Positions 1 through 59,500 of a stretch of DNA of 64,000 nucleotides are shown one piece after another. A program made the translations under genes and the position numbers. The stretch is from Mesodorylaimus sp. YZB2_4. Its lineage: Eukaryota > Nematoda > Enoplea > Dorylaimida > Dorylaimidae. The notes under the pieces were generated by a model, which was not told the DNA's origin, did no database searches, and saw only the letters and a list, made by a program, of their open reading frames with translations. Each line of letters opens with the position of its first letter. Positions within the stretch are counted from its first letter, which is position 1. The stretch lies in the NCBI GenBank assembly GCA_030248295.1, contig JASANH010000626.1:1240001-1304000 (forward strand), read 5' to 3'.

Positions 1-3000
1 TCGATTATCAATACGCTGAAACAGACCAATAAATCGAGGAGATAAACAAGTAAACAAAGTGCCCATACCGTCTGAGCCGGTGCTTTGATTGAGCGAATCG
101 CGTAAGTCCAACAATTGGGTCACAAATCTTGGTTTCATCCAAAAGAACTAAACCACATTGCGATTCTTTGTTTTGAACAGTTTCCACCGCATTCAAACAA
201 AGCTCCAAAGCGACAGCGGAACGCTCCACAATCTCCTGAAACGAATCAGATTTCTAACCTCCACGCTATGAAATATTTCAAGCCTCGACATGCCTTGCTC
301 GATGTTCCATCCGAGCTTTGCAACTGCCTCTCCAACGCATCGAGATACCCATGCCTTAGAAAGGACAGCGGAATTCAATCATCGTAATATAAAACTGCCA
401 GACAAGGCCACTTACTCACGAACTAATTTTAGCTCAGCGCCCATTTTTTCTCCATCCAGTACGCAGCATTTACTCTCCAAATCTTCCACAGGCTCGACCA
501 CATTCAAACTCTGTCCGCCGGACAGAAATGCCACAGCCAGTCTTTGATTCGTCCGATGCAGCTGGCACTCTCGCATCATTGCCTCCACTACGTGTCGAAA
601 ATGCTGGACCATCTCCACTGGACGGGCAGCGTACTTGTTCTTAGTGATGTATTTCGATTGAACAACGGGAGTCCAATCGTATATCGGCTTCGACGGCGTG
701 AACGTTGGCCGCTCCAATTTGACCAATATTCCGTCCAAGGCCGCTGACAATGCTCTCATCGATGACCACTTCGGCCTCAACTGCCAGGCGAGGTTCAACA
801 AAACATCGGCCAGGCTCGAATCGATGGGTTTCTTCAACTGACTGGGCAATGCTGGACAGTGGTCCCCCAGCAAGGCGCGCAGTGTCATGGCGACACCTTC
901 GGCCAACGAGTCCAAGCAATAGCCGCCTTCGAGCACGACGCACACTCGTCCACTGGCCAACGGCAATAGCATTCGAGTCAGGTGCCCGTAACACAGCGGC
1001 GACACTTCCATACGCCCTTCGGGACACCCCACAGCAGCATCGTAGCCAGCACTAACAATGATCAACTCCGGGTCGAATTCGGTGGCTAACGGCAACAGCA
1101 CGTGTGCAAATATGGCCAAATACTCGGCATCGCCCATTCCAATCTTATTCAATGGCACGTTCACATTAAACCCTTCGCCCGGCCCCGATCCAACGTAGTC
1201 CCAATTCGATTCGCGCAAATTCGGCCAAAATCTGCCCTGCTCGTACCTACCATGAAAGAAGCTGTGCCTAGTTACCAAAGCTGGCATCAAGACTCACCTA
1301 TGTATCGAGAAATACAATACCCTAGGGTCGTCGTAGAAGGCTCGTTGAGTTCCTTGGCCGTGATGTCTGAAACAGGCAGCAATGTTAGCACGAACCCCCA
1401 CACAACTCAATCCCACTTACACATCCCAGTCCACAATCAGTATCCGTTTCAATCGATGCACTTCCAGAGCCATTTTCGCTGCAATGACTACATTATTGAA
1501 AATACAAAATCCGTTAATTTCTGCCTTCATGGCGTGATGACCAGGCGGGCGAACCAGCACCATTGTGTTTCTACATTGGCCATTCAATATTGCTTTCACC
1601 GCGTCCACTGTCGATCCAGCAGCGATCAAGGCCGATTCGTAAGTGTGGTCATTCACATACACGTCGTCGAAATCGCCCGAAAGAGACTCCAACTCGGCTT
1701 CATTCAAGTTCGGTGTCTCCGATAATTTCTCTACCAAATCCATATCGTGGTAATGACCCACTTCCGACACATCCGCCCTTCGTGGTGGAATAGGAATGCA
1801 TCGATCCATCAAACCGCGTTCACGGATCTTTTGCAAGGACGTGGTCAAACGAGCCGGGCATTCGATGTGATTCGGATCCCACGGACAATAATGTTTGGAC
1901 GACACGTATTCTTCGTACACTAATCCCGTTCGGGACGACGAGATGGACGAACTGTCTTGACCAGAGCCCTCTGCAATCTGTAATTGTTCTTGAATATCGG
2001 CCGACAATTTTTTGATAGCCCGTACAGTCTCCGCAGCCTCCTCGATAACGGCTTCCACATCCATTTTCTCGGCAGGGCGCAAGCTTGTCCAGAACTCGCT
2101 CAACACATCGATCGTGTCCTTGATTATCTTTCGAGCCCCTTCCGAGCACGGCTTGATCGTATCATCCGGTTCGACAGGGTCTTCTCCGAGCAGCACGCGA
2201 ACGCAGGCGGCCATGGACGCGCTGATCGAAGTCAAATTATATCCACCTTCCAAGGCCAACACCATACGTCCGTTGGCCAAGGTGGCTAGCATCGACGTCA
2301 TTTGAGCAAAGCCATAGGGCGACACACGATAGCCGCCCAGTGGGTCTCCACGAGCTGCGTCGAAACCAGCCGAAACGAGCACCAATTCGGGCTTGAATTC
2401 ACAAGCCACTGGCATGACGATCTGGAAAGGTAAGGTCCTTCTGGGCTCCAGGACAGACCAGATAGACCACTATTACGATCACAGCCATGACACTGCTAGG
2501 CGGTGAAAGAGGGCGTCGTCAAGGGACAAGCAGACCAGCACAACTCACCTTCTTGAACGCCTCCAAATATTCCCCATCGCCGATTCCTTTCCCGTTCCAA
2601 GGAATGTTCACGTTGAAGCCGCGGCCAGCGCCCTCGCCAATGTCCGTATAATTGTTCAGTTCGTTTGACGGGAAAAATCGGCCGTGATCGTAACGATGCA
2701 ACGAAATATACAAAACAGTAGGATCCGTCCAGAAAGCCGACTGCACACCGTTTCCGTGGTGCACCTGGAAATAGATACATTATTCTGACTTTTTCCAAGC
2801 GGTGCAGGCAGGTGTTGGAAATGGCCGCTAGCCTCACCCGCCAACTCTAGGCGTCTGAGCTTTTTCCTGGGACACCCCCATTGGGCACAAACAAGGGACA
2901 CAGGATGCCCCCTACGCATGCTTCACGAGTACCCACCGATGTCAGAGAGATGACGACTACCAAGACAGCCCTTTCTCTGGTTTCTTCAGCAGCCTAACAA

Positions 3001-3853
3001 CCACTTTTAACAACTTTTAAAATTTAGAAATGGCGGGAAAAATCGGGTGAATCACCTCCCCCAGATCTAAACTCGTCATCCTCCCCCGCCAGAAACGACT
3101 TACATCCCAATCCAGTATCAGTATCTTGCCGATACCCAGCATCTTCTTGGCATAGCGCGCAGCGACTGCCACATTGTTCAAGAAACAGAACCCATAGGCG
3201 GCGTCAGGCTCGGCGTGGTGGCCGGGTGGTCTGATCACAGCCGCCCCATTCAACGCACGTCCATCCACAACCGCGTCCACGCACTCCAGCAAGTTGCCAC
3301 AGGCCAGCAAGGACGCTTGCCAAGTGTCGTAGCAGGCATAGATCGAATTCCATTTCTGCTGCCACTGCCTCAATTCATCGATTTCCATACGCGTCGTGTT
3401 GGAAAATTCTTGCACGTACGATTCCTCGTGGATCAACAGAATCTCTTCTATGGTAGCCATTCGTGACTTGACTCGAACGCATCGATCGACCAATCCTTCT
3501 TCTTTCAATTTTTCAAAAATTCGCTCAATTCTTTCAGGTCGTTCAGGGTGATTCATCATTTCCGGGCATTTGTGCAACATGCACCGTTCCTCGTAGGCCA
3601 AACACGTCTTATTGTCGGGTCCTGGTTCCCGTTTCTGTTTCTTCGGTTCCTCAACTTGACAAGACTTGGATGCCTCTTCCATATGCACATCGGTCGCCGA
3701 CCCACTCGCCACAGCTCCTTGACTCTGAGGCGTCTGATTTAATCGTGGCGATCGACGAATCTGATGATTTCCATTTTTCGAATTCTGGCCACCTCCATTT
3801 CCTTGCCTCGATCTAGGCATTTTCGATTCTCCTACAACCTCTCGTCCAGACAT
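1..3853 (-). CDS. HDAC6: HDAC6-like tandem-domain histone/tubulin deacetylase, 3' end cut by window
   Basis: Class IIb zinc deacetylase; HDAC6 family members deacetylate tubulin and other cytoplasmic proteins. Exons I can splice: 3104-3853, 2549-2764, 1421-2421, 1298-1366, 420-1246, giving about 954 residues from ATG 3853. A basic, disordered N-terminus of about 80 residues precedes deacetylase domain A (residues ~85-425), with [28 protein letters not shown] and LEGGYNL. A roughly 90-residue linker leads to domain B (~495-880), with [28 protein letters not shown] and LEGGYCL. Both domains lie in one continuous spliced frame (exon 3 holds the end of A and the start of B), so they are not two genes. 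By my comparison with remembered human sequence, A resembles catalytic domain 2 and B domain 1, the reverse of the usual order. In B the usual zinc-ligand Asp of the GDP motif is Cys. A donor follows position 420; downstream exons are unresolved and no ubiquitin-binding zinc finger is visible before the window ends. The start lies 173 bases from the stop of the upstream SLC35C1 gene. Confidence 0.92.
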
Positions 3854-4026: not shown

Positions 4027-6844
4027 CTACTTCTCATCCCTCCCACTATTTATATCAATCTTGTGCGCTGGCTCAGGCTTCTCAGGTTTGTGCGATTGTG
4101 ACTTTCCAAGCAAGAATCTAGCCTTCATTTCGTGTTGTTTGACCCAAGTATAGGCGGCCGATCCGATCAGAACCACCGAATTACTCAGCCACCACAGGAA
4201 TGGTTTGTACTCGTTGTAATAGACCACAGCCAACACAGTTTGGGCCGCCGCTTTCGCCGTACCACTGATATTATGCGTGAGTGCCGATGTGACTTCGATC
4301 TGCAAGCCTGTGACATAGCCCATGGCGAACCCGAACACTCCACTCAACGACATCAATGACCAAAATTTCAAATCGTAGAAATGCTCAAATAACCCGAGCA
4401 GACGGAATTCGTTGTTCAAGAACATCAACGGGATAAAAATAAGGCAAGCATTAATGTTATTGTACATGGTAAGCTGCCAAATATTGCCTTTCACCAACGG
4501 AAGCATCTTCTTCGTATAAATAGCGTTCAACGCCACGCATAGACTGGCCAACACGCCATAAACCACACCAGCAATCGACAACGAACCTACAACGCGGGTG
4601 ATTGAAAAAGACCGACTTTGGTTACCCTGAGAAATTTTGGTCAAATCACAGGACAGTCTTAATCCTACCCTCCATCGACAGTATGATATGGCTGCCCTAA
4701 CTTTGGGACATGTTCTACATGATTGCGGAGGTGGCCCCTGGGGCCCCGAGGTACTCCTACCAGTATATGTAGATATTCCTCGGGCACCAGGGCACCAGGT
4801 CTATTTCTCAGGCCACACAGCAGGAATCCAGGACTACGACAAACACGAGACCCACACGACCCCAGGAAAGACCCAATACTATGACCCCAGAGGACGGAAA
4901 TACATACCAGCGACGTCTTCCTGATCCACTCCTAATCCGTAACCTCCGATAATAATCCCGCAGCAAGCAATGGCTCTCCAGGACGTCGTCTCACCCAGGA
5001 CGATGTAAGTGCATATCTAAAAGAAGACGCATTTACGGGGTCTCAAACGGAAGCGTTTTATCCCTACCCCCAATAAGAAGACGATGGGCTCAAAAAACTA
5101 AGTAAATAATCTCAAACAAATGCCGCTAGCGCATGTTTTTGTTGTAAAATATAGCTAGAAATACAGTTTCTTCGCCAAAAAAGTCAAATTTAGTTTAGAA
5201 ATTTAAATGCATGGGATTTGCTCCAAGGCCCCTCCCCGGCATCCTGATCTTGCCCATACAGGAGACACGGCTAACGTGCAATCGATCGTCATAAGACAAC
5301 TGTAATCTGGCACATTTCTAGCTCGCATAGACTTACCACATTGAAAACGGTGGTCAGTGAACGACCGATATAATAAAACGATACGCCTACGTATTTCAGG
5401 CATAAACTATTGAAGGCAATCATCGCCACGAAAACGAATGATAACGGCAGAAACTAAAACGAAAAAAGTCGTATAATTCATCATACAAAATTCAAATAAA
5501 GGCAAAACGCTATTCGAGTCTAATCAAGCTTAAAACTAGTTTCTCCATCAGCTGCAAACAGACTCAGTTCTATAATTGCTCCGACACAGTACCTAGTACT
5601 AATCAATCAGTACCGCAGCTATGCTGTGCTCAAGTTAGAAAAGTTAGCTATTGCAAACATAGACTACTGTGCTCTAGACCTAATGCGTCCCCGCCTATAT
5701 TCCCTTCCAAAATATAGACCAGCTTCCAGTCGGTATCAGAATACGATGTTCGCATTTTGTCGTGGCAACTGCGAAGAGTCACTCAATTTGGGCAGTGGCC
5801 AAGTACAAAACCAGACTCGACGTTCTATGCAGAGCAGCGCCTGGTTTTGCAAGTGAATTCAAAGAAACCAATTGATTTCAAAAAAAGTGACGGTCGACAT
5901 TTCAAAATACACAGCTAAATGCCATCAGGAATTTTACCGCAAGCGCAGGAAGCGTCGTGATAAGCAGTTTTTTCGGTGTATCATCGGCCTTTGCGAATAC
6001 CAACACCTGCAGAATCGGTATCGGTGTACCGACCGATATAGACATGCCCCAGCGATTCATCCCCATTCTCACAAGTGCCAGATTCGTAAACCGAGTAAGG
6101 AATTGATCCCAAACAAAACCCACAAATTTCTGATATCCCAATAGTGAATTTCGCTTACCGAAACTAAAATTTTTCTATCCACATTAAAACCGGGAAACGA
6201 AACGAAACCAGGGAATCGTTTCCCCACGACTCCTAATCCCACTAATAATATCAAGGTAACGACGCATTGATACCAAGTCACGAACAACGGTGCATCGAGC
6301 TAAAAATAGAAATATCATTGCACGAAAAAAGATCCATCATGTCCTCAAACTCACCTTCAAGTCATCGCTGCTCAATAAATATTTATTTAGAAATACTAAT
6401 GTGATCGAAACGAACCTAAAAATCAAAGGATTTTAATTGCATCCATGGGCTCCGCTGTCATTTGTCGAGTACTGTCTCGATTCTCGAATTGGTCTCTTTC
6501 TTTTTGCTCCGAAAAAATCTTTTCTCACTCTTCTCAACCCACTATTCATTTTTCCCTTCCCATGCACATGTCATCTCGGTGTCTTCTTCGCTCCTTACAC
6601 TTTTCAAAATTCACAGAATAAATGAACTCACAAAAATACCCGGAATTCTCAAATGTCAAAACCTCAGAGCGAATTTCTTTCCCAAACCCGGACGGGCCCG
6701 GACCCGGACTTACCAATAAAGCGATACGGCGACAACAATTTTCAAGTATTGTGCGCTAAGGAGATCCCGATTGGAAGTGCTCGAAGGCGGCATAGTTTCA
6801 GTCGATAGCGGCTCAGAAGATTCCGATTTCTCTTCGGTTGGCAT
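4027..6844 (-). CDS. SLC35C1: GDP-fucose transporter of the Golgi (SLC35C1)
   Basis: Multi-pass nucleotide-sugar antiporter that imports GDP-fucose into the Golgi lumen for fucosylation. Six exons splice in frame: 6714-6844, 6355-6415, 6159-6299, 5337-5453, 4908-5016, 4027-4586, giving 372 residues (human is about 364). Family-typical stretches include [26 protein letters not shown], the glycine-rich [14 protein letters not shown] and, in the last exon, [20 protein letters not shown] followed by [21 protein letters not shown] 6844 begins a short Ser/Glu-rich cytoplasmic tail before the first helix. The C-terminus is charged and Lys/Pro-rich, as expected for a cytosolic tail. Intron 3 (5454-6158) is 705 bases and I see nothing coding in it. 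The gene lies immediately upstream of HDAC6 on the same strand. Confidence 0.95.
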
Positions 6845-20877: not shown

Positions 20878-23800
20878 CTACAACGTCTCCGACGACAAAA
20901 TCCACAACGTCTTCTTCTGCTCGTGCTCAACAGCATCCGCGATTCGCTGACATATGTACTTGATATTGCAATGCTGGCCAGGAATTACGGCTAAACAAAC
21001 ACAGCACTGGACAACCAGTCTCCCCGACCAACTCAAGCCTTACCAGTGAACAGGTGATGGAACTCCGACTCCAACGCAGCCGATTGCTGGAACATTTCTT
21101 TCGCTTCCTTGCTATTCACCTGGCCTTCACTCAGCTCCCTACAATCACAACCCCGTCACTCACGCATCCCGCACCACTTCTCTCGGACCTACTTGATCTG
21201 TTTATAATCCTTGAACTTGACGTACACAACCACCGGGTAAATTTGAAGGCGATGCAGACGTTCGATAGCGTTCAAGCTGACACGCAAAATACAGTGATAA
21301 CCCTGCAACCAAATCCACTCTTTACAATCCTCTTCTAATCCCATTTACAAACCGTACCTGGTCCATAAGCTCCTTCAAGGCAGCCACTCTCGTAATCTCA
21401 AACAGTTTATCTCGCTTCTGGTAATCGATATAAATATTCTGTTGCAGGCCTTGATTAAGTATGCTTATCGATGCCGGTTGCACGCACTCTAAAATAACCA
21501 AAACCATAAACCCTGGACACCATACTCTACGATATAGCCGAGCCTACCCGGCGCGCAGTGAGCAAACACTTTCGGATAATCGTCCATCAACTTGGCCACC
21601 AGAATGTCCACAAGCGCGCCCACGATCAGAACTGGTCGCTTTTGTTTGTCTGAAAAAAACGAGCTTCACAAACACATACGCGTGGGAAAACCCGAGAATA
21701 TTACAGTCCAGTCGCTCGACTCTCTGATATAATTCGTCAGCGATCACCGCATCGACCGCGTCGATCAATTCTCTCGAGTCCTTCGAAGGAGCACGCTGAT
21801 GCGTTGAACGCGACGAGCGTCTCATGAACTTTAACGACCTTCGAATTGTGCCTCGACGCGACCCGCCCTCACTGCTGCCGTCACCACCAGAGATCTCTGA
21901 ACCACTTCGACGGAAGATGAATTCATCTTCGAGCCTAGAAACAAGCCGGCCATCTCCCTCGCTCACCACACCCCCAATGAAATAGCCTACCTCTGCTTCG
22001 ATGGGATTATACCGCAAGTCAGTTCTCTACCTTCCTGATCAACTGCCCACGCTCGCCACAGCCCAGGTACCCCGTTGAAAACCGTATTGTCCACACGCAA
22101 TATATCGCCAGCTGAAAAGAAAAGCAAAACTAGAATAGAAATCAACAAAAACCAAAAGCGACCTACCTTTGAAGGGCAGTTCATCCCTATTCTCTGCTTG
22201 ACGGTCCACTGTAACCCGAACGTAAAATAAGTCCCCGGCGCCTCTCTTACTACGCTGATACTCTGAAAACCCAAACCACCTCAATCGACGACCACTCAAC
22301 GAGATCAGCCGACTTACTGTTTTCGTTGTATTGAACCAGAACTGTAACCTCGGCACCCACTGCTCGCTGCTTAAAAAAGAGAATGGTCTTTAAACAATCA
22401 GACAAAAATTATCACAAATCCCCACCCACCTGCAACTCAAACAGCGCTTGTTCCATTGTCACTTTACGAAAGTCGACGCCATCAAACTACAATAAAGTGC
22501 ACACTCAGTCACTGTGGTGCCCTGCAGAAAGCGCAAGCCGTACTTCTAAAATCTGGTCCCCACTTCGCAGACTACCAGGCGAACCGTCACTCTCGCTCTC
22601 CTTGACAGTATCAATAAATACGCCAGTAACATTGCCACCAACTAAAACAATGACAACTTTGTATTCACCCTTGCCCCAAACCAACACATACGTACTCAGC
22701 GTGAAGGGCCATCCTGACGACTCTCGCTTGATAAACACGAAACGTGGTTCACTCCAGGCCGCACCATACGTGTCCTCTCCACCAAGAGTTTCACGGCTAC
22801 AAGAAAAATGCGGGTCACAGATCCATCAAAGGACCTGTCCACTGCTCGTACCTCTGCTGCATCTGCGTGCAATCTTTCGACGGTCCAGACGACTTGATAT
22901 AACTGCCCGTCATCGAATTAGGCGTGGCTCGGGGCGTACTGGCAGCACTCTGTTGATGATGGTAGTCACTGGCAGCACGCAAATATCGATTCTGATTGAA
23001 CTGCACGACCAAGGTTATTTGATCGAAGCGATTCAGTTGGCTCAACACATTCGTCGCCACTTGCATATTGGCCGATCGCATGTTGATGCCACACACCTGA
23101 AACTACGTTTCCATCACAAACGTCCCTATTCTCTGCACAGCGCGCAAACTTACGTCCAACAACTGATCGCCAACTCGCAGCCCGTGCCTCGCCGCCAGAC
23201 TGTCCTTCTCCACTGCCGATATGAACACGCCGTTACCGTGACTCAGAATCCGAATTCCGAGCCCTTCGCCCGTGAACTGTTTTTCGATGTGGATTGTTCT
23301 GGCTTCTCCAGAACTCGGCGACAAGGGCGATCCGTAGTCTAAATGAGGCATCAGTTACTGGCAGTCATTGATGGCATTCATCAAACACCTACCATTCTTG
23401 CCGCAGTGACTTCTCGATGCAGTATTCGCATACAGTCCTGGCGTTGGACTGTTCAACGAAGTCACTGAGCGGACGTCATCGGCGGCATCGAATTGATTTC
23501 CAGACGGGTAGACGTGCGTTGGCGATCTGGGCGCCCAAGGCGACGATGAAGTGACTGCGAAATCCAACTGATTTTGCCGAGGACTACTCGCCGCTTGACG
23601 CACAGGCGTCACGAATGCTAAATGTGTTGGATGGTGCTGCTTGACCACAGTGGCCTGCGTTGCTTTCGGAAATAACACATCGTCGAACACGGGCTCGTAC
23701 TGAGATTTGGCCTTGTTTCTTCGATTGCTCTGAGCCGACGGCGGTCGATGATGCTGGCCGCTCACAAAGGCTTGCGTGAAATTCGATGCGTGTTTCTGAC

Positions 23801-26800
23801 TATAGGCGCTACTTCCAGTCAGCGGGTCGATGATTTGACGCCCAGAATAAGACGTAGCCACAGTGCCACTCGACGACAGCCCGAATCCGATACCAGCCGA
23901 TGAAGCACAGCTATTAGAATAGACAGGAACAGCTGGATGATAACTGAGTGGGCGACCAATCTCGTGCTGCCTCCTTCGAGATGCACTGTTATTATTAGAC
24001 TGTCGAGGACGCACACCACCGCCGTGACTAAAAATGTAAGACGAGACGCACCATCACCTATTGACCGAACCAACCCATTCACCCGAAAGGTTTAGACTAA
24101 CAGTACGGACACAATGTGCTGCCCCTGCACTGGTTTGCCACAATTAACCCTCCGCCTGATACGACTGGCCCTCCACCGTCCCGAATTCCAACAGCCACCA
24201 CCTACACACAAGAAAACTTGTAGGTACTTACTGCGAAGGACTAGACACCGCATAGCTCGCCCAGTTATCGGCGGATGGCTGAGAAGGCGGAGGAGGCGAT
24301 GACGAAGAAATCGGTGGTTGGAAAACATCAAATACAGGCTTCCTGGGGGGCCCTTTCTTCGACTGCTGCTGACTGACGGTCGAGACCCCGCTCCCGATCG
24401 ACGGCACCAACGGCAAACCTCGCGACTTCGGCCACGTTCCACCGCTCGACTTGTCCGAATTAGTCACATTGGCCAAACTCCTACAACTTTCCATCCCATT
24501 TAACCGGCCTGACTCTCCCCTAACCCGCAACTCACTTATTCACTGGTGGCTCTCTTTCAGAATCCTCCAAAATCCGATCCAGTTGCTGCAAGACCTGTTG
24601 TTCAGGCGAGCCTCCATTGGCACTACGATTGCTACTATTCGAGGAGCCGCTGCAAATAGAATTCGTCCTGATGTACCTACTACGATCAAAGCGAACGCTA
24701 GGTTTCGGTCTGCAAATAGAAAACGGAAAGACACTGCAACGAAAATAAATTAAACGTGCAATATATGGGTAGAAAGCAATACTGAGTCAGGGTGCCCCGA
24801 CCCTGAAACAAGGCAAGTGGGGTGCGAAGAAACAGAAACTAATAACCAACAGTGCCCACTCCATCACAACAAACCCATTCCCACTAGTCTTACCCGCACG
24901 TCACCGAAGCATCGACACTTATATTAGCCAACGCTTTCACTGTCGACTTTTTTTCTGCTTTTCGAAAAAACTTATCGTGCACCTGAAAGAGCAAACAAGT
25001 TCAGTCTGGTAGCTGACAAACAAAAGGGGCGGCAGCACCCACCTTATCAATAAGACTGGTTTCTGGCTTCTTCGGCAGTGCCAAGTAACTCCCGCTGCTG
25101 CTGCTCAAGTTCGGATCAGCCAGTAGCTGCTCCGACGACGACGCTAACGTCTGCACCGATTCGTCCCTGTGCGCCCCGATGTTTCGAGAATTCGGTGATG
25201 AAACTGTGGCCTCACCAGATGTCTTGGCATTACTCCTATTCCCACCGACGACATAATTGTTGCCATTTGTTGTGAATCCTCCGGGCCAACTGGTGGTTGG
25301 CGACATGACTGGAGGACTCTTCATCACAGCCAACACAACCGAACATCCCTTGTAGCTCTCCAGCAAATCGTGTACGTCGGAGGCCGCCTTCCCGTGAACG
25401 GGAAGATCGTTGACCTACAACCCGTCCCGATCCTTCATTCGCTCTCCAAGGCAAAACAGCACTTACGTAAACCAGACGATCGCCAACTGCTAAATTGCCA
25501 GTTTTTGCCGCCGGTGAGCCAGTCTTGATTCTGCTTACGTAAACACCATTCTCGAAGATAACGCCCATATCTAAACATGAACACTCCTTCGAGAGTTGCT
25601 ACACTTTACCAGATACAACCAGCCTTACTTCCGTCACTCGACGAACATAGAGAAACAGAAATAAGTTTCATGCCAACCAGTCGTCTCCGACGAATTACCT
25701 GAAATTTTTTTCCGACCTGAACCCGCCGCCACCGAGCAAACTACCACTTACTCACCATTTTCACAGCAGTACTATTGCGAAGAATATCGAGCACCGATCG
25801 ACGCTCCATGTTGGTCACGTCGATATTATTTACTTGCAGAATACAATCGTAAGGCCTGAAACGCACATCAATTACATCACCTATGCCAAGCCAACATATC
25901 CCTCAATCCTTACCTCAATACACTCTCGAACTTGCTATTCTTCGATAAACTTTTAACATAAAGCGGCACCGTCCCACCAAACGCAGGGTCATCCCGACCC
26001 CCGCCTAATTCAACGCCCGACTCATCGTTTTTATGAGTCGAGTCCTGAAACATTAAACACAACGAATACACCCTAACCCCAATCCCCGCACACTCATCAC
26101 TTACCACACTCAGTCCCAAAGTTTCGATCTCCCATTCGGCCATATCGGCATCAATGGCCGAATCTCGACTGTTACTCGGACTGCACGCGTTCATTTGACC
26201 CCCTCCGCCCTGGCCCGACTTCAGATTCGTCTCGAGCTCCATTTTCTCCCTAAAATAAGACGACAGTCCTCGTTCTTCTCCCGACACAAGAGTCAACTCT
26301 TACTTGAGCTTTCTGCACTCCCTTTCGGCCAATTGCTTTTGACGTTGCAACTCGTCCGTGTCGCGAAAAACCGTCATCAAGCGAGTTATCGCATCGTCAC
26401 GTTCTCGTCTTAACGAGTCGCACATGGCTCGCATACTGTCCCTTTCCGCCACGATTCGTTGCCGTTCACTCAGCGCCCAATCGCGCCTTTTTTTTGCGTC
26501 GTCCAGTTGTTGTTTAGACACTAAAAAGAGCACTTTTCTTTCTTCTACACACCCCAAACGAATCCTCTACTTACACTCCATTTGCTCTTTGACCGATTCC
26601 ATTTGCCGACGCATTTCATCCAATTCTTCTTCCTGCGCTCGGCTCGTAATCAAAGCCACCTCGCTCTCCGAACTAGCAATGCTTCGTTGTTCGACGAACG
26701 GGTGATGTCCATGAGACTCATTACCGGCGCCGACCGACGGCGGAATGGCTGGCAACACTCGACGAATGCCCGGTGCCGGCGTGTGCTGCACGGAATGCGA

Positions 26801-29800
26801 CGATGACGAATTGAACGACATCAAGTCCTCCCGACTGTTCTCGAACTTATGCTGCTGATGTAAATGATGCAACTGTAACTCCAAACTCTTCATCTGCTCC
26901 AAAGCTGAATGATAATCATTTTCGACACTTTTCAATTTCTTGCTCAGCTGAGCCTTCTCCTCGGAATGGCGCTCATTCTCTTTCAAGATCGAATCACGCT
27001 CCGACATTACCCGACGATATTCGGTCACCACGCCCTCGTGCTGTTGCCTTAGCTGCTGATAATCGGCCTCCATCGTCTGACGCCAACTAATCAATCTTCA
27101 ACAAAGACCACCAGTTGACGTCCTCGCAAAACCATAAAACTCATAAACACCTCTCACCTCGTCCTGTCGGCGCACGCATCTTCGTATTGTTGTTTCAACA
27201 TTTCGTTGTCATTTTGGAAAAAATCGCGTTCCTGAACTATTTTGTGAAGTTGTTGACAGACGGCTTTTAATCTCGAGTCCAGCGAATTATTGTTCATACG
27301 CAGCTCGTCCATTTCTCTTCTCATTTGACACGTCTCGTTTTGATTGGACAGCAGGGCCACGCGGAGATCGGCGTTCGTGTTGTCCAAATATCGACATTGG
27401 TCACGCAATTTGTCCCTTTCGATTCTCAGCTCTTCGTATTCCTCCATCAGTTTCGACGCTAGTTCCCCCGGTTGCCGAGATAAGTCACGGGCCTGTTGCC
27501 GAAGATCGTCCACTTCCGCCTGCTTACTTTGCACTTTGAACTGCCACTCCGTGATCTGAAGAAAAGAAGAATGGGACCTTAATTTTATTAGCCCCGCCTA
27601 GCCGACTCGCCCCCGTTTCCCCTCGAGATACACCCCAGTCGATTCGCTGCCATACTTCAAAAAAACCTCCTCTGAAAAACCAAAAAAGCAGCAGCTGCAC
27701 ACGCGTGACTTATACCGCCTGCTTGCCGCTATAAATTTTTGCATTTATATACGTCGGAGAAAAAAGCATCAATCTGGAGAATACCCCTTTGAGATTGATA
27801 ATCTTTCAACGAAGCTGAATGGACCAAAGCGAAAAAAGTCATTTATGACGCAATAGCTGACCTTGTTCCGCGTTCTAACACTAGCCGCAGGTACACCGTG
27901 CCTCCCCGCCGACCAATAGGTACTCCGAGAAATCACGAAACGTCGTGCACAACAAGAACGCAGGCGCTTCCTTTTCGAATATGAAATTAGCGTCCACCAA
28001 GCAGCAATATGCTCGTCTCGGCAAGACTCAATCGGACGCCGAGCACCGAGCAAAGACTCCGCGACTCTGCTCGTCCAAGTCCGACAATGTACAACCTTGC
28101 GCCCGCCTTAATTATGCTCTCGCCACGAGCGTGACATATCCATAGCTGCAACGAAGACCGATGCAAAGTAAGCGCGGGCACAAAATCAGCTTCGCATACT
28201 TCATTGACGAGCCACAGAGCGCATTAACGGCCGCACCGGCCTCAATTATTCACGAATACAAGGTTGCCGTTTCTATGGTTTCAATGAAAAAGAGCTTCTA
28301 GTATGTACTTTGTGTACCAAAGCACCATCTTCTCCCTTTCGCCGTCTTGAAAGCACAAATGGACAAGAGTATGTAGACAGCTCTCTGAGCTCGCCAAACC
28401 AACTGCGGCCTAAAGTGAGGTTAATCGAGCGTAGACTCGGACTAGCTAAGACTCGGCCGATCGACCAAACAACGGGTCGCCATAGGACGGGCCCAGCTGA
28501 TACTGATACCCGCCAGCTCGCTCAAAGCCAAAGCTCCCCCCCGTGCATGCACACAAATCACGGCTCGATGAGGAGCTGTGACAAAAAATACCGCTTGGTT
28601 GCCCCCAACGTGCAGCCTTGATCAAAAGTGCAATATTTCACGCCACGTTTCCCAACCAACCGGCAATCACGCTACTCGCAGGCACTTCAAAGAATGTCTG
28701 CACGTAAAAAATACAAGACGAAACACAGGGGGCTTGAGTCACTTGCACCCGAGCTGCCTCGATGGAAACCAACGGCAGCAACCAACCCCGCGGCCATCCA
28801 ATCTGCATACACACGAATACATCAAAGTGCAGACAGCACCCACACATAAGCAGCCAAGCAGCAGCTGACATTTGCTGCACTTAGCTTCAATTTTTACCTG
28901 TCTTTCCAAGGCTAATCGCTGTTGGCAAGCAGCATCGTACTCGGACTTGATACGAGTCAACTCGGAAGTGACATTGGCCAAATCGACGTCCTGGCGGCAC
29001 TTTGCTGCTCTGCACAACTCCAACTGATGCAAGACGGCTTGATAATCGTTCATTGTCGCCTCGTGCTTTCCTCGTAATTCTTTCAGTTCTCGTTCCACGT
29101 TTTCCAATTTCAATCGCAGCAAAGCCACTTCGGGGGCCGTACCGGCGAATGACCACCGGTGCGTTTTATCTTTGCCCAAGGCGCTATCGAAGGCTGTGCT
29201 TGTGGTTAGTTGCGTCAGTGGCAGATCACGTTCGCTGCCGCCGGACGCCGTCTGCTTGCATTCCTCTAGCTGCTGGTAACCACCGGCGCCCCCGTGACGC
29301 AACAAGGGCAACCCGCCGCAACCACTGTTGGCCGACGCATTACGAACTCGGGCGAACAAATTCGACGTCGGAGTCGTTGATTGAGCACCAGCGGCCGGCG
29401 GGGTCGACGGCGAAAAATAGGGTGGCGCTGGGTAGGACGAGACGGGACTATAGATGGAACGCATCTCGAATGGTCTCATAACATTGCCGCCACTGCTAAC
29501 TTGCATCCACTCCAATGCCAACATCCGGTGCGACGAGTCGGTTCCGTCCAAACAACTCGTCTTGCTATCGTCCCTCGTTTCTTGGCCCAAAACGGAACTG
29601 GCGATACTATCGATCTCCTCTTTCTCGTCTCCGCACGCCCCTGAATCTGGTATCAGTTCGTTTTTACCAGAAAAAACTTGACCAACCTCGCTCGAAGAGT
29701 CTTCGTATTTTAGCACGGTCGACGACGTCGGTTGAAAACCAGTTTCACCTTGGACCAGTAAATCGGTGAAACCCATCTTCGATCTAGGTCCCGCATCTTC

Positions 29801-31262
29801 CACTGAATTGACGCCCACCCCCGGTGGCGTCGTTTCGTCGGCTCTCGCGCTCGTTGATGGACCGAGCGTCGACAAAAAAGGCGGTTCCAAAACGAAATCG
29901 GTCTTTTTTATTGTCAAGTCCTCTTCGTCCTCGTCGTCATTTGGAAGCAGTGGTGGTGGCGAACTTTCGGGCGGAGGTGGCAATCCAGCCTCCAAAAGTG
30001 GACAGTCGCCTGAAACAAGATACTTTTGATATATTACTCGCACACACCACCCCGCGCACTGCCCTAGGCCTGTGAGTGAAATCTAAATGGCATCTCACTC
30101 TTATACTCAGCTGGGCCGTAGGTGCAACTGCGTCAATACAACACCTGCTGACACTCGTAGGAAGTCCGTACACAACAGCACGGATTGTCCACCACAAAAC
30201 CATATCGCCGCCATCACAAGAGAAAACGACACGCCTTGCAAGAAAGGACTAACCGGCGGCGGGGAAACGCAGTGGTAAAAACAAGCCTCGTCCGCCTGAC
30301 CCAATGGCAATAAACGACGGAGTAAGCGCAGCCTCCTTTGAACCACGTTTCCTCTTTCAGTCTTTCTAAATCTAAGACGATGCACGAATGGCTGGGGGAA
30401 AGCGTAAGCACCCTAACAGCTCCCACTGGTACGCTGACACGCAGTTAGTCGTAATTGAATACTACGCCAATTCGCTGAGCAAAAAGATGGACATTCTCTG
30501 AAGACGACGTAAAAGGAGAAAGCGGCCGAGCGCAGGTCTTCGTCGTTAGGCCACGTCCAGCACCCGTTCTGCCGTAATTCCTTTCCTCCCTAACAGCCCC
30601 CAAGCCGCCACCGTTGGGGATGGAAACGGTGATGGGTGTTGGAAAAGCTTAGGCCGCCTCTCCATCTAACTAGCCTACGGATCTTCGATTAAAATCAAAT
30701 CAAACGAGATTTCCGGCCTCGTTTTCACCAGCGCACTAGACCTACTTGAGCACGCACGACCCAGACCAAACGCTTAATCACATAACCTGCGCGTGATCGC
30801 CATACGAATGCACTGCTGCTGACCAAGACTGACAATGACCAAAGCGGAAACCCAATAGAGCCCAAATTGAACTTTTTTTAATCAGCAATTTTCTGATCAA
30901 AGCGCAAAAAAGGAGAATCGGGAATTCCAATTCTGAAGCCTAGACTGCCCCGTTATGCGTTCTGGGAAACGATGCCGCAAGCTACACTATTTACACGCGC
31001 CACAAAAAAGGCAATATCGAGCACATAAAAGGGAATACGCTTGACCGCACTGCTCACTGTTTTCGAACCCAGTCAATCGAGAGAGCTCACCTGAATCATC
31101 CAATTGGGCATCGATCAAACTGTGATCGGTGGTGGGGGTTTCATCACAAACGTTATCGACAACTTGGTCCGAGTTTGTGTCGTCAACTGTTTCGGGCCCG
31201 ATTCCCGTTGAATCCTCTTTCTTAGAAGTATCAAGATCACTCCGCTCGTTCTCCGTCGCCAT
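20878..31262 (-). CDS. DLG5: Discs large homolog 5 (DLG5) MAGUK scaffold
   Basis: Membrane-associated guanylate kinase scaffold of cell junctions, polarity and Hippo regulation. Twenty-nine exons splice in frame to 2074 residues: 31091-31262, 28898-30009, 27158-27555, 26575-27095, 26304-26520, 26105-26249, 25914-26044, 25756-25855, 25629-25698, 25467-25570, 25043-25414, 24894-24982, 24536-24709, 24232-24480, 23393-24027, 23154-23338, 22852-23096, 22696-22796, 22544-22641, 22430-22486, 22318-22369, 22167-22262, 21991-22111, 21705-21934, 21548-21649, 21358-21488, 21193-21302, 21044-21138, 20878-20990. Order: acidic disordered N-terminus, coiled coil (exons 2-5), PDZ1 and PDZ2 (e.g. GVYVSRIKTGSPAA, AVGDRLVY), Ser/Pro-rich linkers, PDZ3 (GVFISAVEKDSLAARHGL), PDZ4 (GVFIDTVKES), SH3 (DLFYVRVTVDR), guanylate kinase-like domain (RPVLIVGALVDIL to the C-terminus KTLWILSSETL). 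I see no N-terminal CARD as in human DLG5. Introns 27556-28897 and 30010-31090 are long; nothing coding was recognised there. Confidence 0.95.
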
Positions 31263-35790: not shown

Positions 35791-38700
35791 CTACAGTCCA
35801 ATGCCCACCGTCTGGCCATCGGGTTCGGACTCGTAGTAACGTTGCAGGCGAACATGCCAGGCAATACTAGCCACGGCCGATAGCGTCCGAAATTGGTGCA
35901 CGACATTGCGCGGCAGAAAATAGATGTCGTTATCGTACAACTGGAATTTGGCATATCGAATACCTTCCCGACGTAACAGATTCAACTTAGCCTCGTCCAC
36001 CCACTGCACACATTGCGATACAGGCGGTTCGAACAAGTCCAATTTCAGACGATCAACAACACGACGAAAATCGGCTGCGTGGAAACATACTACATCCTTA
36101 ACCACACGATTTTCGGTTTGCCTAAAATAATTGAGTTAGAATACAACCAAAAAGAAAAACTTGAAATCATACTTTTTCCCGCAAGTAATAGCTTTTAAAA
36201 TTCCAACAGCCGCCGTTGTCCTCCTTTCTAAACCATCCCCGACATGATCGGCGTGACAAGGCGTGCGGTCCTCGTATAAAATTTCTCGTTTTTCACTCGC
36301 TCTCATTGGCACAGCGTAGGATAATCTCTTCAGTTCAGACCCAGTGCCCCTAAAATATCATCAGATATGACCCCTTTAAAAACGGCAATTCAATACTTCT
36401 TACTTCTTTTTCTTCGTCGGACTCTGTCCGGTGGTCTTGGGTAGCTCATCGGTCGGAATCATCTGTTCTCCAGGTCGAACCCACACGATCGGACCGTCAT
36501 TACTCAAAGAACGATGCGCCAACCGGACGGAAGCCCATTCGCCCCATGGCATCATCGGTGTCAAGAAAGGACAGCTGAAATCAGTGCGCATACCAGTACT
36601 TCCCTCAGTTCCCTGCCCCCCCTTCCCAACCAAAACCAAACGCCAGCCACTTACCTCTCCAATTTATCCAACACTTCCGGACAGTAGTCACCGCATTCTT
36701 CCTGCTTCGTCCCAACTAAACTAATGGACATCAATGGGCCGGCTCGGAAAGTGCCGCACTCGAACGTTTCATGAACACGCTGTCGATAACTGCTGAAACT
36801 GGTCGTCTCGATATCTTGCTTGCTGTTCAAACTACCCACTTTCACGGGCATATGGCCGTATCGGCGACCAAAATATTCCACTAAATCAGGCAAAAATGAC
36901 GCCGCCCCGTGAACGATTCCAATCACGTGCTCGGGAAATCCATTCTCAGGCGATTCCTTCAAAGTGAAATTTAAAAAATAATTTGCGAATCGACGAAGCT
37001 CTGCCGACGTCAACGAAGCCAACTCGTCCGCGTACGAACGTACGATAACAGCCGATCCCATCGAATGATGTTCGATACGAATTAAACGACGGAATTTAGT
37101 TTCTTCATCCATGGCCGGTTCTGAAATCATGGCGGCCGATAGTGCGAGATGACGACGAGATTGCTTATTCTCGTAAAAATATGCTTCGTAGGAGCAAATG
37201 TCAATTTCCTCTTGCTCGTCCTCGTTTTTAGTCTCCACTTCGGGAATCGAAGACACAACTTCAAGCACATCTGTCTGACATTCCACATCAGCCCAAGTCG
37301 ACAATGGCCATGTCTGTGTCTCAACAACGGAATAAGCTTTGCTTTCAGTTTCCGTTTCACAGTCACTTCGTGAAATCGGATCGACTTGCGTTGCTATCGA
37401 ACTTTGATGAAACCATGAACAACCCGCTTGACAATCGAAATCAGGACCATCGTGACTTGGTAATCCAGAAGTCTGGACGCTCGAGTCGTTGACAACTGGA
37501 GGCGGAGTCGGATCGACGTGGAACTGCACGACATGGCTGGATGCATCTAAGCGAGGCCGCGTACTTTCCGTTTGCATGCAGGCATTAAATGTTTCGGCCT
37601 TTGGCGAAGGAGGGGGCGGCGATGTGCACTGATGAGTACGAGACACCAGGCAATCAGTATCCACTGAAATATGCTTGAATTTCTTCTTGGGCGGGACGTA
37701 AGTGTCGACAAGTTTTGGCGATACACGTTCACGCTCGCGCTCGTCGGGAGTCATGGCTGTTGTTTCTTCGTCGCTCACTTGTAAATTAGCGTCAACTGAC
37801 GAAATGTCATTCATTGGACTCGAGAACCCGTTTTCAGCTAAGGACGCCGCGCGAGTGATCCCATTGCTAGCAGATTTGGCCAAAGATCGGTCCGATGATA
37901 GATAAAACGAGCGCGACCGGCTCACACGACCGCGAGGACGGCCGCGGGGACGACGACCCGGTGCATGTTGAGACTTGGTATGGTAAGCGGGAAATCCTGG
38001 ATGGCTGCAATTCGTAACTGGAGCTGACAGCGGACCAGAGAAATCTGAAAAGAGCAGAAACTAAAACATTTACGCTTTAACATAAAGGATTTCTCACGAC
38101 TTACCATATTCATTAGCGGCCACTGCTGAGCTAATTTCGCTGAGATCCACGCTGGAACGGTGATCGCTATCAGGATCCTCAAAAAGATCGCATTTTTTGT
38201 CATTTTCGTTAGCCAATCCGTCTTCCTTCAGAAAAACATCGTCCATGCTGTTTCGTCCACTTTCTCTTCCTGACTCGTGATCGCTGGAACGATGACGATG
38301 CCGACGACGGAAAGACGGGCAATAAATTTTTGGAATGCGAATAGTAATCGAACGGGCCAACGGGTCTTCTCTTATCGTCAACAATCCGCCACCTTCGAAA
38401 TCATTTTCGCTTTTACTAATCTTTTCCGCGTCAGACCCGATTATTGTCTCGGTCATTTGGGCTGGCGACGAAGAAATTTCGGGTTTGATATTGAATCGAA
38501 AAGCAGACATAGGCTCGTGGTCTTCCAAGATTTTATCACTTTCTTCCTCTTCGGCGATTTTATCCTTCACGAACGGATGCCCGATATTCGAAACACGATT
38601 TCCGCGAATTCGTCCGCGTCGTCCACGACTCCAAGTTCGGCGTGTGTCCTTTCCGCTGCTATTCAGACCCGGTAAGCGATTGCGCGGTCGAATGGCGCTC

Positions 38701-38924
38701 GAATTTTTTATTTTCAATGCAGTCTTGCTCTTACTTTCCATAGCCGATCGACGTCTTGTCAACATGAGCGATTTCTGCGGCGTTTTTGACGTCATGCTTC
38801 GCAATACACGTTTTTCAATTGGTGGGAGTTTCGGAATCGGCGCCGAAGCAGCAACGGCCACTGGTATATCGATAATTGTTTCCGAAACGTCCAACATCGG
38901 GCTGGAATCAGTCACCGAAGCCAT
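35791..38924 (-). CDS. RSBN1: RSBN1 (round spermatid basic protein 1 / KDM9) homologue
   Basis: Chromatin protein related to C. elegans DPY-21 and mammalian RSBN1, reported as H4K20me2 demethylases with a JmjC-type fold. Five exons splice in frame: 38105-38924, 36655-38044, 36404-36574, 36173-36349, 35791-36121, giving 962 residues. The N-terminal half is basic/acidic and disordered, with an Arg-rich segment ([10 protein letters not shown]) and an AT-hook-like RPRGRPRGR encoded near 37925-37955. The conserved C-terminal half contains [105 protein letters not shown] and [27 protein letters not shown] supplies the H-x-D pair, and the later VHQF/AWH histidines are candidate metal ligands. The start is the first in-frame ATG. 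Confidence 0.93.
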
Positions 38925-39216
38925 ACGCAAGTATTTTAAGGAGCTCCTACAACAGCAAGCACAACTATTTATTTACCGCATAGGCTTCTAGGTTTCATAG
39001 TAGTACTGTAAACTCGTAAACTTACAATCAACAAACAATAAAAATCAATTGCTGCGAAAACGGAAAAAAGCAAAAAATCAAGTCGCTACACCCAAAATGA
39101 CGGTCAGATGAGAAGTCATGACCACAGAACTGTCATAAATTTTTAACACTCACGACCAGGCAAGACGAATGTAGCCTATACTTTTCGCAGCGCTTACGTA
39201 AACCACCCACTAGCTG

Positions 39217-56500: not shown

Positions 56501-59500
56501 CTGATTTTCAGCATGATAGCGAATACGTTATAGAATAGCAGTATATACCACCTGCAAAGCAAGCACCAATCAAATACATTTCGCGCACGTTTCTGTTATT
56601 CTTACCTAATCATGATTCGACTATGAGATTCCAAATACAGATCGTTCCCTTTCCACAGCAGTGCGAACGCGGCCACCAAATATCCGAATGCGAATCCCGA
56701 AATTCCACCGACCCCAGCGGCGAAGATTATGAACAAAGTGATCCAATGGAAATATACAAAAATAAATACTTTAGCAACGTCCAAGTACGACCTCGTACAA
56801 TTTATAAAATTCGGTGTCGGATTTCCCGCCGTGTTCTCATCGCCACGTTGATGCTGTTCTCCGCCTTCCGTATCGATCGGGTCCATCTTCACCATGGGCG
56901 TGTAATGGCTGATGGGGGCGTTGTCACCACCTTCGGACAACGAGGATGCAGTTGGTGACGTTTCCACTCGAAATACGTACAGTTGCGCCGAGGCCAACAA
57001 TAACACGAAGAAGTCCCCGATTACGAAATACTTATTCGGTTTCACTTCATAGTCGGGTAGGAATAACCAATTGGCCAACTTGCTGCTGATCCCTGACCAC
57101 GGATAGGAAAGACAAGCTGAAGGTGGCAGTCCGACGCACACTGCGTATTGCGTGGGAAGCGACACGGCAACGAACGTTACGAACAGCCACCAAAAACGAG
57201 CCAGTGTCCGTCGAGGCAGCGCAAGCATAACCAACAGCCAAACCGTGTAGACGAATGCCACCGCATCCATCCGAACTCTAAAAAATATTTAAATACAGTA
57301 CCCCCGTGACAGAAAATAATCGTCCAGACTTACCCCACATCGATAATAACCATAATGAACGTCATCTGAAAGAACGTATTTTCACATAAAAACTTGTCCA
57401 TCTCAAAATCCAGTCTAGCATACCTCCAATCCGAACTTATAAAATCCATAATTCGCCAAGAACATGAGACACTTGCTGACATTTTCATCCGCATCTTGCC
57501 GCCCAATACCTGGAAACAGCACTCCGCGTGCCGGCGTCGGCTGACCTAGCACCTCCCGACAGTACTTCTGACGGATTTTCACTATTGCTTGAAACGTAAG
57601 CAGCACTAACACGGTCACATAGCCCTGGAAAAGAAGCCATGATCACGTCTGGTTTACTAAGTATACGAATCCATCCTCACTTACTTTTAGGTATTTGGCC
57701 ACCATTAGTTCTGGTCCAAGCCGGGCGAAACCGGCCCATGTCGCTGGATCTTGGATGAATGTTATTGACTGGAAATAAACTCAGTTAGAATCTCCAAGGT
57801 CCACCCATTGCAACTAAAGGCATACCGTGCAATTCTTATGATCGAAGTCTACTCTCGACAGATCAATGAATTTCATCTGATAAATCATTTTGGCCACGAT
57901 GACCAACGCTGACCAAATCGTGGCGATCACCGACAGGGCAGTGTTCATTCGACGACAGGGCAACATGCAACTGGTCACCACACTGAATACGAAATTGACT
58001 GCGTTGATCTAGAAAAAGGGGAAATAGCACAGAAACTGATGTCTCGACCTTGAACAGCTTACCTCGGACACAGCCAATATTAGCATGGCGAACGCCACTA
58101 CTTTCGTGAAATGGATCTCAGCTACTCGCCAGAAGAAATCGCATCCAATCTCGTAATAATTTTTAATTATCGGAAACCAATTCGATTTGACTGACACAGC
58201 TACAACAGAAACACTATGCCCGACGTTCTGTCTCAAACAACAGGCCAGCCACACTCACTCGAGTTGAATCGTTCTTTCGATCCTCCGCCAGCAAAATCTG
58301 TCAGCTTCATAAAGCTAGCGTGGAAAAATTTCATTTGCAAAATGACCACAATAAGAAAGGAAATTGGAGTCAACAACTGAACGAAGAGGGTCCCAGGATA
58401 GTAGCTGACCAAACCGAGGTCATCGAATCTGAACGAAGCAGGAATGTATGCACAACAGTTAGATCAAGCAATCACAACACTTACGCATCGTCCGGCCACC
58501 TCGTCCAATTGTGCCACCACGTCGGTACTTCACTGAACTGGTACGTGTAGACCAGAAGCAGCACAGCGATCGAGAAAGCAGTCAATACTGTCCAATACAA
58601 GAATAGCATCAGACGCCAGAGTGTGAATGACACCTGCAACAAACCGAGTCAAGCAACGGGGCTCGATGGACGATTGGAAATCAATCATACCTGAAGGACT
58701 GTAATCAATACGACGAAAAATGCCATATAACACACTTCGTAGGCCACTACCGGTGTCCTTATTGAAATCAGCAGCAAGACCAACCCCACGACGTAAATCC
58801 AGTACTTCACCAGCACGTTGCCGACCACTCCGTTGGCCACAAACCCGCTGCTGGTCGACGGCGATGACTCGAAATGCAAATACGCTGCGGCCGATGAACT
58901 CGTCGCCGATACTCCGAGTTGACGTTGATAATGCCGCTCACGTAAATGCAAACGTAGAGTGATCCAGAAAGGTATGGAGAAGAAAGCCTGAACACGGCCA
59001 CTTATAAGTCCCCGCGCTGGCTACACGATACACCACAACCATACCTTCACAAACAAAGGAACACAAGCCGCTCCGATTGGTTTCATTAACCCGATTTGTT
59101 GCATGGGCACACCATTGACCAGCGATCCGTCAGGTAGCTCTTCCTGACTCAAATTCAGGCCGTAAATGAACTGAAGACATAGGAGAACCTAAAACAGACC
59201 AGCTTGTCTACGATCAGAATACTACAAAAACCTGATTGGCTCACCTCGGCATAAAATACAATAAAGGGTGACAGCAGAAAACAGGCCCGTCGACTATCGG
59301 CCATCATCCAAATAATGCAAGCCAACGCCAGCCATATGAATGCCAGCCAACTGTGGTACGTGATAGCCCAAGCCATCATCATGACCAAAGCCAAAGCGTA
59401 GCTGTGTCGCACGATGAACGCCACCGCCGCTCCAATCGTCTTGTTCTCGCTCTGTTCCACTGGAACCGTCCCGATCGAGAACAGCCGCTTGTAATCGTGG

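Follow-up and report, generated by a model that had tools for sequence, protein, structure and literature searches.

An HDAC6 locus of a nematode in which a CD2-like deacetylase domain precedes a CD1/HDAC10-type domain, a degenerate third domain and a zinc finger

The stretch of DNA analyzed here, hereafter the window, comprises 64,000 nucleotides (nt) from the nematode Mesodorylaimus sp. YZB2_4 (bases 1240001-1304000 of contig C1, in a genome of 145 megabases, Mb), and its minus strand carries a gene for a homologue of HDAC6. HDAC6, a drug target, has two deacetylase domains, catalytic domains 1 and 2 (CD1 and CD2), that are thought to hold fixed places and roles. In the window translation, exons 1-5 with GT-AG introns join into a single open frame of 954 residues, and both deacetylase domains (A, the first, and B, the second) are matched exon by exon by Pfam Hist_deacetyl; the open frame around exon 3 alone gives 212.1 bits in two stretches. 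Beyond the window start, coding sequence runs for another 1.2 kilobases and encodes a third deacetylase domain (C) and then an HDAC6-type zinc finger (ZnF-UBP); one deacetylase match of the genome spans this boundary. Our best full gene model has 11 exons, 1373 residues and the domain layout A-B-pseudo-C-ZnF (Table 1); eight of its ten introns measure 51-65 nt, and the remaining two 127 and 339 nt. An earlier reading of the window from its letters alone (the sequence-only reading) had described the gene as an HDAC6 with its two deacetylase domains in reversed order. All the motifs that it quoted are found in the translation, the end of A is joined to the start of B in one 1001-nt exon as it had claimed, and its gap of 173 bases to the neighboring gene was borne out, with a same-strand upstream frame ending at 4027 and the HDAC6 ATG at 3853. 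The order of A and B stood; the count of two domains gave way to A, B, a degenerate C and ZnF-UBP.

On the spliced stretch beyond the window, Pfam Hist_deacetyl matches domain C with 71.8 bits and zf-UBP follows with 66.9 bits; zf-UBP was also detected on the unspliced DNA (45.3 bits). The six best solved-structure matches of this zinc finger are all HDAC6 zinc fingers (95 to 108.5 bits; top two 108.5 and 101.3). The residues aligned with H573, H574, D612, H614, D705 and Y745 of zebrafish HDAC6, in what we take to be the CD2 numbering, are kept six out of six in both A and B, and all six are lost in C as aligned. When codon usage from exon 7 onward was scored against that of exons 1-5, a score that partly reflects amino-acid make-up, the frame of the model reached 0.167, compared with -0.285 and -0.320 for the other frames. 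For exon 7 alone the score was weak (-0.02), yet above the other two frames (-0.30 and -0.24).

The HDAC6 reference domains used to type A and B are vertebrate (human and zebrafish), and the gene itself comes from one nematode genome. Maximum-likelihood trees comprised nine domains, two class IIa rows serving as outgroup, and a version with one outgroup row agreed. Domain B falls into one group with HDAC10 and both vertebrate CD1s (support 100/100), and in half-domain trees, which served as a mosaicism check, B stays with this group in both halves (88/93 and 100/99). Within the group B adjoins zebrafish HDAC10 (88/88), and B with CD1 alone is not rejected (approximately unbiased test, p-AU 0.098). 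The bit scores of B were 374.6 for zebrafish CD1 versus 323.5 for CD2, 367.3 for human CD1 versus 306.4 for CD2, and 368.4 for zebrafish HDAC10, and its identities were 48% to HDAC10, 47% to human CD1, 46% to zebrafish CD1, 44% to both CD2s and 36% to class IIa. Twenty-seven columns distinguish vertebrate CD1 from CD2; in 10 of them B carries the CD1 state, in 5 the CD2 state and in the remaining 12 neither.

Domain A resembles CD2 most. Among solved structures, zebrafish CD2 gave it 375.9 bits and zebrafish CD1 344.0, and its identities were 53% to human CD2, 49% to zebrafish CD2, 44% to zebrafish CD1, 43% to HDAC10, 43% to the class IIa HDAC of its own genome and 42% to human CD1. Its N-terminal half alone scored 135.7 with zebrafish CD1 versus 132.2 with CD2, and 144.4 with human CD2 versus 129.0 with CD1. 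Of the 27 columns, A has the CD2 state in 18 and the CD1 state in 5. Neither A clustering with CD1 nor B with CD2, the outcome set beforehand as decisive against a reversed order, was found: A as CD1 (p-AU 4.4e-5) and B as CD2 (p-AU 1.9e-5) were both rejected, and so were A and B as sister copies (p-AU 7.4e-4).

Three tree results weigh against calling A a CD2 outright. Joining A to CD2 costs 1.27 log units relative to the best tree (p-AU 0.21), placing A basal to the CD1 group costs 0.70 (p 0.37), and the best tree itself sets A beside class IIa with support of 45/43. In the half-domain trees A was unplaced, and in that of the C-terminal half the two vertebrate CD2s were likewise not united. 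The trees fix A on no single branch because many "CD2 hallmarks" also occur in class IIa HDACs: at the same 27 columns the class IIa HDAC of this genome has the CD2 state 12 times and the CD1 state three times. A large part of the CD2-looking sequence is probably the older state. What the sequences safely allow is to exclude A from CD1, with CD2 as its closest resemblance, and to type B as CD1/HDAC10. The CD2-type first domain of the sequence-only reading is retained as CD2-like, with A and CD1 kept apart by the test, but not as a domain that trees place with CD2 to the exclusion of class IIa; its CD1-type second domain belongs to the CD1/HDAC10 group, but with a gatekeeper like that of HDAC10 and not of CD1.

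The sequence-only reading had also suggested a tandem duplication to CD1-CD2-CD1-CD2 followed by removal of the leading CD1, which would leave a further CD2 downstream. A deacetylase domain is present there, but it is predicted to be dead, and its sequence gives no basis for calling it a CD2. Several comparisons fail to tie C to CD2 or to any one group, and its scores against CD1 and CD2 are about equal. It scored 108.7 bits with zebrafish CD1 versus 103.0 with CD2, and 105.3 with human CD1 versus 100.8 with CD2; against profiles it gave 121.1 for CD1 and 121.8 for CD2, which became 123.0 and 118.9 after B, HDAC10 and A were added; and at the 19 diagnostic columns that could be scored it shows the CD1 state five times, the CD2 state once and neither state 13 times. 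In the free tree it forms a branch of length 3.75 on the CD1 side (85/90). Typing it by tree was given up: the branch is too long, and the five placements tested gave p-AU between 0.042 and 0.18 (C with class IIa 0.042, C with A 0.048, C with A and the CD2s 0.062, C with the CD2s 0.124, C with B 0.18). Its identity to every reference is at most 31%. Domain C as the counterpart of the HDAC10 pseudo-domain was likewise discarded, since C scored 33.1 bits with the pseudo-domain fragment, eighth of ten, and the fragment was nearest human CD2 (45.1 bits).

One intron, by contrast with B, where it has no counterpart, lies at the same aligned place and in the same phase in A and C (AFKK|IVMP and AVHH|IILP). 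By simple arithmetic (2 x 3 introns, 723 aligned sites, site preferences ignored) such a coincidence has a chance of about 1%. It is this intron, and not the trees, which do not unite A and C, that inclines us toward common descent of the two domains. It also fits the tandem duplication as one route to the present anatomy, as does the finding of a third domain downstream, but that particular route is on the unlikely side: C is not demonstrable as a CD2, its union with A is slightly disfavored (p-AU 0.048, above), A is not proven to be CD2 proper, and other routes, for instance the addition of one domain, fit equally. As a separate observation, introns lie just before HHG(N/Q)G in both A and B, at DWDV-HHG; they are two bases apart and in phases 0 and 2, respectively, as if one old intron had slid.

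The junction from exon 5 to domain C is the least certain part of the gene model. We enumerated 1203 stop-free paths across it; the bridge is therefore not unique, which counts against the single-message model. The best two-intron paths scored 1.1 and 0.9 and the best one-intron path 0.1; the 0.9 path was adopted because it keeps exon 5 whole and its introns measure 65 and 54 nt. The resulting exon 6 is tentative, with a weak donor (GTCGAG) and an unusual acceptor (TCTAAG), and the junction of exons 5-7 is uncertain. The alternative is two genes, in which A-B would end at its own stop (KLVRE*, 412-414) and C-ZnF would form a second cistron, its start an ATG at 352 preceded by a splice acceptor. 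An in-frame stop does follow shortly after the exon 5 donor, the junction of exons 5 and 6 is uncertain, and the locus looks like an operon, with same-strand gaps of 173, 184 and 148 bases. The gap between the two supposed cistrons would be only 59 bases, unlike those three, an in-frame path with introns of the usual size for the locus is available, the exon 5 donor matches the consensus on its intron side (GTGAGTAA), though not on its exon side (TTC), and in vertebrate HDAC6 the zinc finger is established on the same chain as the catalytic domains. We consider two genes improbable and proceed with one gene of the layout A-B-pseudo-C-ZnF.

Substrate selection by these domains can be approached through their gatekeeper residues. 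At position 712, in the zebrafish numbering used above, A has a leucine, as do CD2 and class IIa, and B has a glutamate, as does HDAC10; vertebrate CD1 has a lysine. At position 531, A has a serine, as in both vertebrate domains, and B an aspartate, as in HDAC10. The PACE insertion of HDAC10, P(E,A)CE in loop L1, is absent from B, which shows a two-residue gap in the alignment. According to passages of PMC5454378, the leucine gatekeeper is the common state in most HDACs, the CD1 lysine selects substrates with a C-terminal acetyl-lysine, and the HDAC10 glutamate favors N8-acetylspermidine. The same passages report that changing the HDAC10 glutamate to leucine caused a 20-fold loss of that activity and an approximately 100-fold gain of lysine deacetylation, and that removal of the PACE insertion caused a 15-fold loss and a 16-fold gain toward lysine and left the enzyme bifunctional. 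Since B has the glutamate but no PACE insertion, a mixed or relaxed cationic specificity is predicted for it. Two points temper the use of these residues: the leucine of A is not a CD2 mark, and the aspartate of B at 531 matches HDAC10 D94, whose mutation had no substantial effect in the passages seen of PMC5454378. In HDAC10 the dead domain packs against the active one, and the resulting assembly resembles the arrangement of the two domains in HDAC6 (PMC5454378, in the same passages); by analogy, this suggests that chain order need not stop A and B from pairing.

Taken together, these results make it probable that the nematode HDAC6 is a cytosolic multidomain deacetylase with the layout A (intact, CD2-like), B (intact, of the CD1/HDAC10 group), C (degenerate, non-catalytic) and ZnF-UBP, encoded in one message. 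In such an enzyme, A would do the job of vertebrate CD2, namely broad removal of acetyl-lysine, for example from tubulin. B would be the narrow-specificity domain, its glutamate gatekeeper favoring a cationic substrate such as an acetylpolyamine or similar, possibly with mixed lysine and polyamine activity given the missing PACE insertion. C may serve as a structural partner, like the pseudo-deacetylase domain of HDAC10, and the zinc finger would bind ubiquitin C-termini. As to origin, an internal duplication may have given HDAC6 an extra intact deacetylase domain, after which the copy beside the zinc finger would have decayed; B-C-ZnF would thus hold the positions of CD1-CD2-ZnF, and A would have taken the CD2 role from the N-terminal side. 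A bolder version, which we hold to be doubtful, is that a single chain combines the functions of HDAC6 and HDAC10: A would act on acetyl-lysine, B on acetylpolyamine (or both), C would be the pseudo-enzyme partner, there would be no separate HDAC10, and CD2-like activity would have moved to the front when the copy on the zinc-finger side died.

Whether this layout is peculiar to the species is a separate question. The order, and perhaps the dead third domain, may be the ordinary nematode HDAC6 architecture, old and shared, which is compatible with the multidomain enzyme just described and which we regard as an even chance. The long branches of A (0.80) and B (0.86) give no sign of recent rearrangement, and the low identity of C to any reference also fits great age. 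C. elegans HDA-6 presumably also starts with an HHGNG-type domain, an assumption too uncertain to be used as evidence here. An assembly error behind the domain order is far less credible: the order is known from a single assembly, but A and B are joined within one uninterrupted exon, the frame can be extended into C and ZnF, and the contig measures 2.5 Mb.

The literature gives little guidance. Nematode HDAC6 domain order is not stated in the seen portions of PMC7288346, PMC10707265, PMC8012573 and PMC11984871, which mention nematode HDACs or hda-6. We recognized no report of a three-domain or reversed-order HDAC6 in the open-licence PubMed Central (PMC) literature, subscription journals and databases lying outside the scope of the search, and six phrasings of a third deacetylase or HDAC domain do not occur in open-licence PMC papers; this is weak evidence of novelty. 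The interest of an A-B-pseudo-C-ZnF HDAC6 depends on whether nematodes generally share the layout. An HDAC6 that opens with a CD2-like domain, has an HDAC10-like gatekeeper in the next and carries a dead third one would offer a natural test of whether domain order matters, and the same architecture would bear on how HDAC6 and HDAC10 parted and on whether HDAC6 inhibitors and CD1/CD2 assignments also apply in worms.

Elsewhere in the genome, the 16 deacetylase matches comprise six in this HDAC6 gene, two on contig C360, two on C4, three on C3 and three on C7. By their motifs, the C4 pair is presumably HDAC11-like and the C3 and C7 sets presumably class I. No separate HDAC10 was recognized among these 16 matches, its absence being unproven because the search ran exon by exon and only the best candidates were scored. 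Of C. elegans, parts of PMC7288346 state that class IV HDACs are apparently absent, and parts of PMC8012573 place hda-11 among the class II HDACs. The A-B exon had no confirmed relatives among 10 pattern matches in viral contigs and 31 in prokaryote genomes.

The HDAC6 gene belongs to an operon-like run of minus-strand genes (Table 1). The Pfam scores of the upstream transporter frame for TPT and EamA (24.8 and 19.1 bits) do not reach the curated cut-offs (30 and 28.2), and the start codons of the G-patch and Pex2/Pex12 genes, as well as the grouping of the G-patch exons, were taken by eye. The 22-nt nematode SL1 leader, in the form that we take to be canonical, has no exact match in the genome. 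The cuticle-collagen N-terminal family, typical of nematodes, has 133 matches in the genome, which accords with its nematode origin. The arthropod-type chitin-binding family has none, a weak absence given that it also had none in 14 prokaryote controls. The window further holds Piezo exons and five long open frames (232-469 amino acids, aa), and Rfam at gathering thresholds gave no match in it.

Table 1. Exons of the HDAC6 gene and other features of the window and genome. Positions are those of the window unless marked; L009 is the adjoining stretch beyond the window start.
Feature	Position	Strand	Remarks
Exon 1	3104..3853	-	N-terminal tail and first half of domain A, to DWD; ATG 3853, GT donor; Pfam Hist_deacetyl 140.7 bits
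Exon 2	2549..2764	-	Domain A from VHHGNG through FKK; GT-AG introns, both in phase 0
Exon 3	1421..2421	-	End of domain A, linker of ~41 residues, first half of domain B; 1001 nt, uninterrupted
Exon 4	1298..1366	-	Domain B from HHGQG through FSIHR; GT-AG, preceding intron in phase 2
Exon 5	420..1246	-	Remainder of domain B with glutamate gatekeeper (protein residue 755), and ~104 more residues
Exon 6 (tentative)	290..354	-	In-frame bridge from exon 5 to domain C, from the second highest-scoring stop-free path; flanking introns 65 and 54 nt
Exon 7	69..235	-	Start of degenerate domain C; open frame, TTTCAG acceptor
Exon 8	1..15, on to L009:8787 (C1:1239787)	-	Continues past the window start
Exons 9-11	L009 8731-8558, 8503-8072, 8015-7824	-	Rest of domain C and ZnF-UBP
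Introns before HHG(N/Q)G	2764/3104 (A); 1366/1421 (B)	-	At DWDV-HHG
Upstream neighbor	4027..4800	-	TPT/EamA-type transporter open frame; ends 173 bases before the HDAC6 ATG
Operon-like run	4800 to L009 4720 (C1:1244800 down to 1235720)	-	TPT/EamA-type transporter, HDAC6, G-patch protein, Pex2/Pex12-type peroxin; gaps 173, 184 and 148 bases
Piezo mechanosensitive channel exons	56605-57288 and 60767-61837	-	Pfam Piezo_TM25-28 67 bits, Piezo_TM1-24 146 bits
Long open frame	22335-23339	+	No Pfam match at E 0.01
Long open frame	23358-24053	-	No Pfam match at E 0.01
Long open frame	28742-30082	-	No Pfam match at E 0.01
Long open frame	36654-38060	-	No Pfam match at E 0.01
Long open frame	38097-38972	-	No Pfam match at E 0.01
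HDAC11-like gene (presumed, by motifs)	G000:C4:1614917-1615965		

Among known systems, class IIa HDACs of the HDAC4 type share with domain A many of its "CD2" states, as the 12 of 27 columns in the class IIa HDAC of this genome illustrate. They differ in that this genome has a separate class IIa gene on C360 (HDAC4, 450 bits), and none of the seven zf-UBP matches of the genome lies there. With HDAC10 the nematode gene shares the grouping of B with the zebrafish protein, the glutamate gatekeeper and the aspartate corresponding to D94. In both, a dead deacetylase domain follows an active-looking one, but C is not closest to the HDAC10 pseudo-domain. The nematode gene differs in that B has no PACE insertion and in that domain A and ZnF-UBP are also present. 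Vertebrate HDAC6, of the layout CD1-CD2-ZnF-UBP, is the closest comparison. Common to both, as far as sequence can tell, are a pair of intact, class IIb-like deacetylase domains joined in a single chain, of which A is nearest CD2 and B falls in the CD1/HDAC10 group, and a C-terminal HDAC6-type ZnF-UBP, with KFG..MP at the end as in human, which would lie on the same message if the exon 5-7 path holds. The nematode gene differs in its order, CD2-like A before CD1-like B, in the degenerate third domain before the zinc finger, and in the gatekeeper of B, a glutamate in place of the CD1 lysine. The order with CD1 first and CD2 second is known from vertebrates, and its absence here bars the name "canonical HDAC6" but not that of an HDAC6 homologue. 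The architecture is real and unusual, and A-B-pseudo-C-ZnF describes it better than "reversed".

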